Position numbers and translations under genes: made by a program | Notes under the pieces: generated by a model | The model's input: the letters and a program-made list of their open reading frames with translations, nothing else | Told to the model about the DNA's origin: nothing | Databases searched by the model: none | Shown: positions 11,082 to 54,956 of the stretch, one piece after another | Layout of the letters: each line of letters begins with the position of its first letter | Numbering within the stretch: position 1 is the first letter of the stretch | Assembly (NCBI GenBank): GCA_903833215.1 | Contig: CAILEM010000160.1 | Coordinates: 1-64,000, forward strand | DNA: 64,000 nt | From: an uncultured Armatimonadota bacterium | Lineage (GTDB): Bacteria; Armatimonadota; Fimbriimonadia; Fimbriimonadales; Fimbriimonadaceae | Reading direction: 5' to 3'

Positions 11082-11116
11082 ATCGCTTTGGACTTTTGGT
11101 CATCGATGTGGTTGAC

Positions 11117-11158
11117 GGGCGATGCCCACCAACGCGATGGGGCGCGCTTACAGCGCTC
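11117..11158 (+). repeat. REP-like element, copy 1
   Basis: It begins with the palindrome GGGCGATGCCC, followed by CGATGGGGCGC and then a hairpin GCGCT-TAC-AGCGC. Copy 2 repeats the same order 68 bases downstream. The pattern resembles widespread intergenic REP-like repeats of Planctomycetes and related genomes that share a GGGCGNTGCCC core (recalled, not searched). Confidence 0.65.
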
Positions 11159-11181
11159 TGATTTTGGTGGCTGCGCAGTTT

Positions 11182-11230
11182 CCAGGGCGATGCCCTTCGC
11201 TATGATGGGGCGCACCGTTGGTGCTTTCGG
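11182..11230 (+). repeat. REP-like element, copy 2
   Basis: GGGCGATGCCC, CTATGATGGGGCGC, then the hairpin CACC-GTT-GGTG. It has the same architecture as copy 1, but the last hairpin has a different sequence with pairing kept. Confidence 0.65.
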
Positions 11231-11265
11231 ACTGGTTCACATCCAGCAATAACCACCCAGCCTCT

Positions 11266-11506
11266 GATCACCCGCAGGGTTCCGGAAAAGGAAAGTCCAA
11301 CTCGTCTCCCTCCTTCGCAGAGCTACGGCGGACAAGCTCCTCAACGTCCATAACCGTCGCCGTTCGCTCGTCGCTGGGCAGTCAGCACGATCCTGTTTGA
11401 GCGCGAAGGGGCGAGTTGATCGTGCGCCCAGCGATGACGAACGATTAAGCGACGGTTCGGGACGTGGAGGAGAGACAGCACCCAGCGGTGTGAGCGTCCG
11501 AACCAG
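11266..11506 (+). repeat. Large hairpin element, copy A
   Basis: The element shares order and sequence with two copies near 54.5-54.9 kb. It starts GATCACCCGCAGGGT, has long imperfect arms (11337-11379 pairing with 11426-11472), and has an inner stem GCACGATC (11385-11392) pairing with GATCGTGC (11418-11425) around a 25-nt loop. It ends GAGACAGCACCCAGCGGTGTGAGCG-like. Copy A carries an extra block of about 27 bases near 11309-11337. Any ORF across it is an artefact of the repeat. Confidence 0.8.
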
Positions 11507-11616
11507 CCATCGTACAGAACAAAACGTAGGATCCAACCAGAGCCGAAAGGAGGAAGTACGAGGGAAGCAGCCAGAGTGTTGGAAACGATTTACTATTCGC
11601 CTCGTCCAATGGCTGG

Positions 11617-54334: not shown

Positions 54335-54461
54335 GCGCATGATGTTGATTTATGGACGCTGTTGGGCTCGAAGTCCAAGATTCCAGAGCATTTTCTGGGA
54401 CTTGGGGCCACCAGACCGAAATCACCTGGCCAAAGAAGATGGTATCGGCCTAGCCCCAAAT

Positions 54462-54615
54462 CACCCGCAGGGTCCGGGAAGGGAAAGTTCAACTCGTCTC
54501 CCCCCGACGTCCATAATCGTCGCCGGTCGCGCGTCCATCGATGACGAACGATAAAGCGACGGTTCGGGACGTCGGGGGGAGACAGCACCCAGCGGTGTGA
54601 GCGTCCGAACCAGAC
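54462..54615 (+). repeat. Large hairpin element, copy B (short form)
   Basis: It starts TCACCCGCAGGGT and shares the GACGTCC-ATAATCGTCGCC... / GCGACGGTTCGGGACGTC arms and the GAGACAGCACCCAGCGGTGTGAGCG end with copies A and C. It lacks the inner variable stem-loop. Its outer stem (TCTCCCCCCGACGTCC / GGGACGTCGGGGGGAGA) is GC-richer than in A and C. Confidence 0.75.
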
Positions 54616-54654
54616 GTAAACCAGAGCAGCCGATTGAACAAGCGAACCAGACCC

Positions 54655-54875
54655 CGATCACCGGCAGGGTCCGGAAAGGGGAAGTCAAGCTCGTCTCTCC
54701 TCAACGTCCATAACCGTCGCCGTTCGCTCGTCGCTGGGCAGGCAGCGCGCCACTGTTTGAGGCCGTAGGGCCGAGTTTGGCGCGCGCCCAGCGATGACGA
54801 ACGATGGAGCGATGGTTCGGGACGTGGAGGAGAGACAGCACCTAGCGGTGTGAGCGTCTGTACCAGCCTTCGTCG
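54655..54875 (+). repeat. Large hairpin element, copy C
   Basis: It matches copy A through the long arms. The inner stem is GCGCGCCA (54745-54752) with TGGCGCGC (54778-54785) around a 25-nt loop of the same length as in copy A. It lies 40 bases after copy B in the same orientation. Confidence 0.8.
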
Positions 54876-54956
54876 AGAAGAAAAGAGAGTCAGGCCAGAG
54901 CCGTTCGGAGGACTGGAATCGATGATTCCTCAGCCGCCCGGAATAGCAAATTACAA

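Follow-up and report, generated by a model that had tools for sequence, protein, structure and literature searches.

The window, the whole 64,000-nucleotide stretch of Armatimonadota DNA that was analysed, carries three copies of a long hairpin repeat, here called R1. R1 is a large relative of the REP/BIME kind of repeat, newly found in Armatimonadota, and not a new system. It is probably one module, the long hairpin, of a mosaic repeat of BIME-like kind that Y1 transposases would have spread in trans. With it, Armatimonadota gain a REP/BIME-like mosaic, and one whose module is several times as large as a REP.

The R1 element and its copies

All sequences quoted in the first-pass annotation were present at the three sites, but its description of a three-copy element was outnumbered: a BLAST search with copy C against the own genome (6.22 Mb in 168 contigs; copy counts are lower bounds) returned 55 pieces in at least 44 dispersed places, most of them with 82-92 % identity. 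The closest other copy was 92 % identical (E 3e-85). The covariance model search that had been proposed there was also run, and further copies are abundant. About 40 copies are near full length; further partial ones were obtained in separate searches with the 5' module and the 3' module, and in these the two modules surround differing or absent middles. At some loci the 5' and 3' modules occur without the hairpin between them, or with the 29-nt block alone. Several contigs terminate in an R1 copy, as expected, since repeats break assemblies.

R1 is about 205 nt long and forms an imperfect hairpin of about 60 pairs (64 counted in all in the consensus fold) with a 25-nt apical motif, followed by a purine-rich tail. 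The order of parts from the outside inward is ATCACCCGCAGGG, a mostly unpaired stretch, the invariant GTCT, the long stem and the 25-nt apex, which reads CTGTTTGAG-GCC-GAAG-GGCC-GAGTT. The 3' side terminates in GAGACAGCACCCAGCGGTGTGAGCGTCC; the purine-rich tail that comes next is about 80 nt long and moderately conserved. The ends of the element are not sharp. The consensus fold has an energy of -124.5 kcal/mol in comparison to -84.4 kcal/mol for shuffled sequences (z = -8.1), far beyond chance. The apex has the potential for tandem G-A pairs, hence a kink-turn was considered. A long-range stem between an upstream motif, TTCGGACGG, and a tail motif, CCGTTCGG, looked plausible by eye and was rejected, as pairs within a copy matched no better than those between copies (p 0.95); the same motif was also discarded as a target duplication, since its 5' and 3' versions mismatch within copies.

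The extra block of copy A, from which it had been concluded that the element tolerates inserts, is indeed there; it is 29 nt long, palindromic and common to several other copies. Mini-palindromes of 25-30 nt (e.g. CCGCCTTCGCCAAGGCTATGGCGGAC) are nested at differing positions of R1 (11308-11336 in the window, L034, L040, L042), and a similar one occurs elsewhere in either arm in L034, L040, L041 and L042, as if a separate small repeat had been inserting into R1. Block variants and module-only loci together present R1 as a framework in which nested palindromes come and go.

Head-to-tail pairs of R1 with a shortened tail between them were observed in the window (54460-54859) and at C147:84768/85018, C143:7438/7679 and C162:20195/20410. 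At another locus (L027, C162:12300-12650) a complete R1 is preceded by a 112-bp tandem array made of repeats of the REP-like palindrome R2b plus the first 25 nt of R1.

Table 1. Positions of R1 copies, their parts and upstream palindromes in the window, and of Y1 transposase genes in the own genome (contig:positions)
Feature	Position	Strand	Basis or remark
REP-like palindrome R2a upstream of copy A	11110..11160 (-157..-107 from R1)	+	R2 alignment
REP-like palindrome R2b upstream of copy A	11182..11231	+	Y1 transposase genes elsewhere are flanked by this family
R1 copy A, long hairpin element including 29-nt block	11267..11499	+	Sequence match, fold
29-nt palindromic block CCCTCCTTCGCAGAGCTACGGCGGACAAG, 5' arm of copy A	11308..11336	+	Alignment of copies
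Copy A inner stem GCACGATC/GATCGTGC and 25-nt apical motif	11385..11425	+	
Copy A inner stem arms; apex	11385-11392 / 11418-11425; 11393-11417	+	
Copy A purine-rich tail, semi-conserved	11500..11580, right end approximate	+	3' module match, flanks
R1 copy B, without inner stem and apex	54460..54606	+	Sequence match, fold
R1 copy C	54657..54859	+	Tandem with B, starts 197 bases past B start
Copy C 25-nt apical motif	54753..54777	+	Inner stem GCGCGCCA/TGGCGCGC
Copy C purine-rich tail	54860..54912, right end approximate	+	3' module match 54829-54912
Y1 transposase genes (L151-L157), part 1	C25:8516-8857, C50:492-833, C50:84293-84634, C122:12752-13093		
Y1 transposase genes (L151-L157), part 2	C99:31642-31920, C59:8205-8468, C109:51253-51528		

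Covariation and the strand that folds

The 8-bp inner stems around 25-nt loops in copies A and C were confirmed, as was the statement that four of the eight pairs differ between them with every change compensated; the outer stem of copy B is likewise altered on both sides (CCCCCCGACGTC/GACGTCGGGGGG versus CTCCTCAACGTC/GACGTGGAGGAG). The difference between GCACGATC/GATCGTGC and GCGCGCCA/TGGCGCGC lies on one branch of the copy tree, leading to seven copies. The four compensations therefore represent one block event and not four independent ones, and the A/C comparison does not hold as a stand-alone proof of folding constraint.

The covariation across 40 copies, a set of about 40 natural variants of a single hairpin now at hand, is real. 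When the 40 aligned copies were scored at 64 pairs, 94.8 % of the cells were standard pairs and 18 pairs were changed on both sides, and 0 of 500 shuffles reached any of five covariation measures. In the control with the partner slid by 1-3 columns, pairing fell to 28-44 %. Two-sided changes on the same branch of the copy tree numbered 22 in comparison to 5.2 expected (maximum 11 in 500). Compensated changes are spread over about 14 branches, several of them being single pairs each on its own branch, and the tree also holds 90 pair-breaking events. The clear covariation that the structural interpretation in the first-pass annotation called for is thus present in the larger set. Some copies are chimaeras whose two arms do not match (L039, L036, L040), which suggests that R1 copies exchange arms.

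One-sided departures from Watson-Crick pairing, read on the + strand, comprised 47 G-U and 18 A-C (p 4e-4), counts that rest on a tree of recombining copies; a cruder tally of distinct pair types gave 27 versus 14 (p 0.06). The corresponding transitions in unpaired columns numbered 60 and 61, and owing to this balance no mutational bias lies behind the G-U excess. G-U and A-C counts swap when read on the opposite strand. The G-U excess together with the unbiased unpaired sites therefore indicates that one strand, the + strand, folds, either as RNA or as single-stranded DNA, and the + strand fold of R1 is thus tolerated or selected. The contrast of G-U with A-C, with unpaired sites as the control, makes a simple test of the constrained strand in palindromic repeats that could serve REPs and ERICs generally.

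Genomic setting, proposed spread and alternative readings

At the 35 loci examined R1 was intergenic in all, save for one doubtful gene model. The flanking genes were oriented ++ at 10 loci, -- at 8, convergently at 11 and divergently at 2, a gene call being missing on one side at four; at eight loci R1 was reversed relative to both adjacent genes. The functions of the adjacent genes are unrelated. The siting of R1 avoids promoters and has no preferred direction, unlike that of a cis-acting mRNA element.

A REP-like palindrome is located at about -88..-35 from R1 in 24 of 38 copies, leaving a gap of 35-40 nt. It belongs to the R2b, R3 or R2a family, and in 13 of the 24 copies R2a is also present at about -157; the family varies while the position is constant. 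All upstream REPs in the 38 copies are direct relative to R1, and no inverted REP was found downstream of it. The fullest unit, in one orientation throughout, comprises R2a, a second REP (R2b or R3), 35-40 nt, the R1 hairpin and the purine-rich tail. Elsewhere in the genome R2 palindromes occur without R1.

The own genome encodes seven Y1_Tnp genes of the IS200/RAYT type. Most have inverted repeats on both sides, and these repeats belong to different families, so that several REP-like systems coexist within a single genome. Inverted R2b flanks the Y1 genes on C25 and C50 (two genes) and R3 flanks the one on C122. The inverted repeat pair at the C99 gene is 104 bp long and 91 % identical. Among three transposases typed, one scored over the cut-off as a REP-associated tyrosine transposase, one over the cut-off as IS200 and one just below it as IS200. 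R1 flanks 0 of the 7 genes, and the mobiliser is therefore inferred from adjacency. The proposal of a REP/BIME-like element moved by a transposase in trans is accordingly borne out as regards a dispersed structured repeat in a genome with Y1 genes, whereas the movement itself is deduced.

In the mechanism favoured here, Y1 HUH enzymes, whose substrates are hairpins of one DNA strand, would have placed copies of the mosaic unit between genes in trans. R1 would either be carried along by the REPs or supply the second hairpin end. The + strand fold would be kept through G-U intermediates, and swapping of arm segments may account for the chimaeric pattern observed among the copies. As copies age they would degrade, nested mini-palindromes would be lost or acquired, and the copies would be tolerated between genes, mostly away from promoters. 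Several observations speak against this mechanism: R1 is absent from the flanks of all seven Y1 genes and lacks sharp ends; R2b and R3 have no evident GTAG tag; the unit consists solely of palindromes in one orientation, unlike classic BIMEs; and two of the three typed transposases match the IS200 model best, one of them just below its cut-off.

The main rival to the BIME-like reading, unlikely though not negligible, sees in R1 a structured RNA with a function of its own, acting as a multi-copy small RNA or as an element at mRNA 3' ends. Its + strand fold and apical motif would bind a protein, and a mobile carrier would have spread copies that are then retained for the sake of the RNA. Strand-specific G-U tolerance, the strong fold (z -8.1) and the 25-nt apex CTGTTTGAGGCCGAAGGGCCGAGTT, identical in a congener with different stems, are in favour of such an RNA, but the same strand signature would be expected if Y1 transposases read the hairpins as single-stranded DNA. 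R1 has no Rfam match under strict or permissive settings, and the lack of an Rfam match also applies to a derivative of IS110 bridge RNA or IscB omega-RNA, considered for the REP-adjacent position. No convincing promoter was found (one 9/12 match by copy A and none by B or C), no orientation bias exists among co-directional genes (++ 10 versus -- 8), the neighbouring genes are unrelated, and many pairs are broken (90 break events) in a family that includes truncated copies. Rather improbable, too, is a mobile structured RNA: a + strand transcript whose conserved 25-nt apex, shared by species with diverged stems, would be bound by a protein, and which would be required either for the spread of the element or for the control of host genes, the Y1 palindromes being its carrier. 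A role in transcription termination or RNA processing is very improbable: R1 is extragenic and often near gene 3' ends, with 11 convergent sites, yet no T-run follows the hairpin on the + strand, and the eight loci reversed to both neighbours also argue against it. R2a, the flanking hairpins and the 3' end of the peroxidase gene do hold terminator-like matches, whereas the sole one inside R1 is a weak minus-strand site in copy B; the termination site once suggested is not supported. Nothing was found in favour of R1 copies being remains of a protein-coding gene, an extremely improbable origin: no frame is open in every copy (best 19/34), copy lengths differ modulo 3, and the variation tracks pairing, not codons.

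The compensations could also be mutational, arising by polymerase template switching between the arms of quasi-palindromes and by recombination between copies, without selection, which we regard as fairly improbable. Template switching has been reported to create and maintain hairpins (PMC8794818), and it agrees with the single branch that bears the four A/C compensations, with the occurrence of changes as linked blocks and with the chimaeras (e.g. L039, L036, L040). Several single-pair compensations on separate branches speak against it. The process is strand-blind and does not predict 47 G-U versus 18 A-C with a balanced unpaired control, and this strand-specific excess is the sole argument for not accepting it as the full account. 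The earlier statement that selection acts on folding is likely, with the reservation that template-switch repair of quasi-palindromes also yields compensated blocks.

Relation to known repeats and distribution

RAYT genes flanked by inverted REPs, hybrid BIMEs and REP variants that preserve pairing have been described; BIME units may mix palindromes of different transposases, and complementary mutations are known (PMC2817692). Similarly to BIMEs (PMC2817692), the R1 unit is dispersed, extragenic, mosaic and palindromic with complementary changes, and it too mixes palindromes of different transposases. R2b and R3 flank Y1 genes as inverted repeats, as REPs do, but R1 does not. Classic BIMEs alternate REP orientation, whereas the R1 unit is unidirectional; alternating orientation was tested for and was absent, and because of this the label "BIME-like" and not "BIME" is used. 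REPs measure 20-40 bp, in contrast to R1, whose single hairpin has about 60 pairs and spans 205 nt, and, unlike in GTAG-class REPs, no GTAG was seen by eye beside the stems of R1, R2b or R3. REPINs (PMC3116915), non-autonomous repeats that form hairpins and are presumably mobilised by a Y1 enzyme, resemble R1 in these respects. A REPIN consists of two inverted REPs and a spacer, whereas R1 has no inverted REP after it and differs in sequence from R2b and R3. CGTC-tagged REPs form a class without its own transposase (PMC3733652); R1 likewise has no dedicated flanking transposase and carries an invariant TCGTCT ahead of its stem, but the GTC of this motif is paired in the fold and R1 is several times larger. 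ERIC/RU-1, the 127-bp intergenic repeats of enterobacteria (PMC2229807, PMC2759123), are like R1 long imperfect palindromes between genes. Unlike ERIC/RU-1, R1 is longer, tied to REP-like palindromes and without a sequence match in E. coli. Both ERIC/RU-1 and R1 tolerate internal inserts.

Nothing similar to R1 was found in plasmids or phages, and 5,426 ERIC-bearing E. coli genomes gave no R1 match. Pattern scans of 84,980 genomes yielded no match in one scan and the congener alone in another, and the backward-pattern control gave 0 matches in 101 genomes. Three pattern matches in another family differ in the middle and look like chance or coding. At the single locus tried for an empty site or target duplication the relatives fail to align, being too diverged. 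The covariance model applied to 120 related genomes detected R1 in the own genome only, plus a weak match in one congener (G004), which has a small diverged family with stems that differ from those of R1. The apex of this family, CTGTTTGAGGCCGAAGGGCCGAGTT, is identical over all 25 nt in one copy; a second copy has two more bases. At one congener locus (L179, C47:12324-12636) the apical motif is exact and the stems are unrelated, and just upstream lies an inverted copy of the locus's own 3' part.
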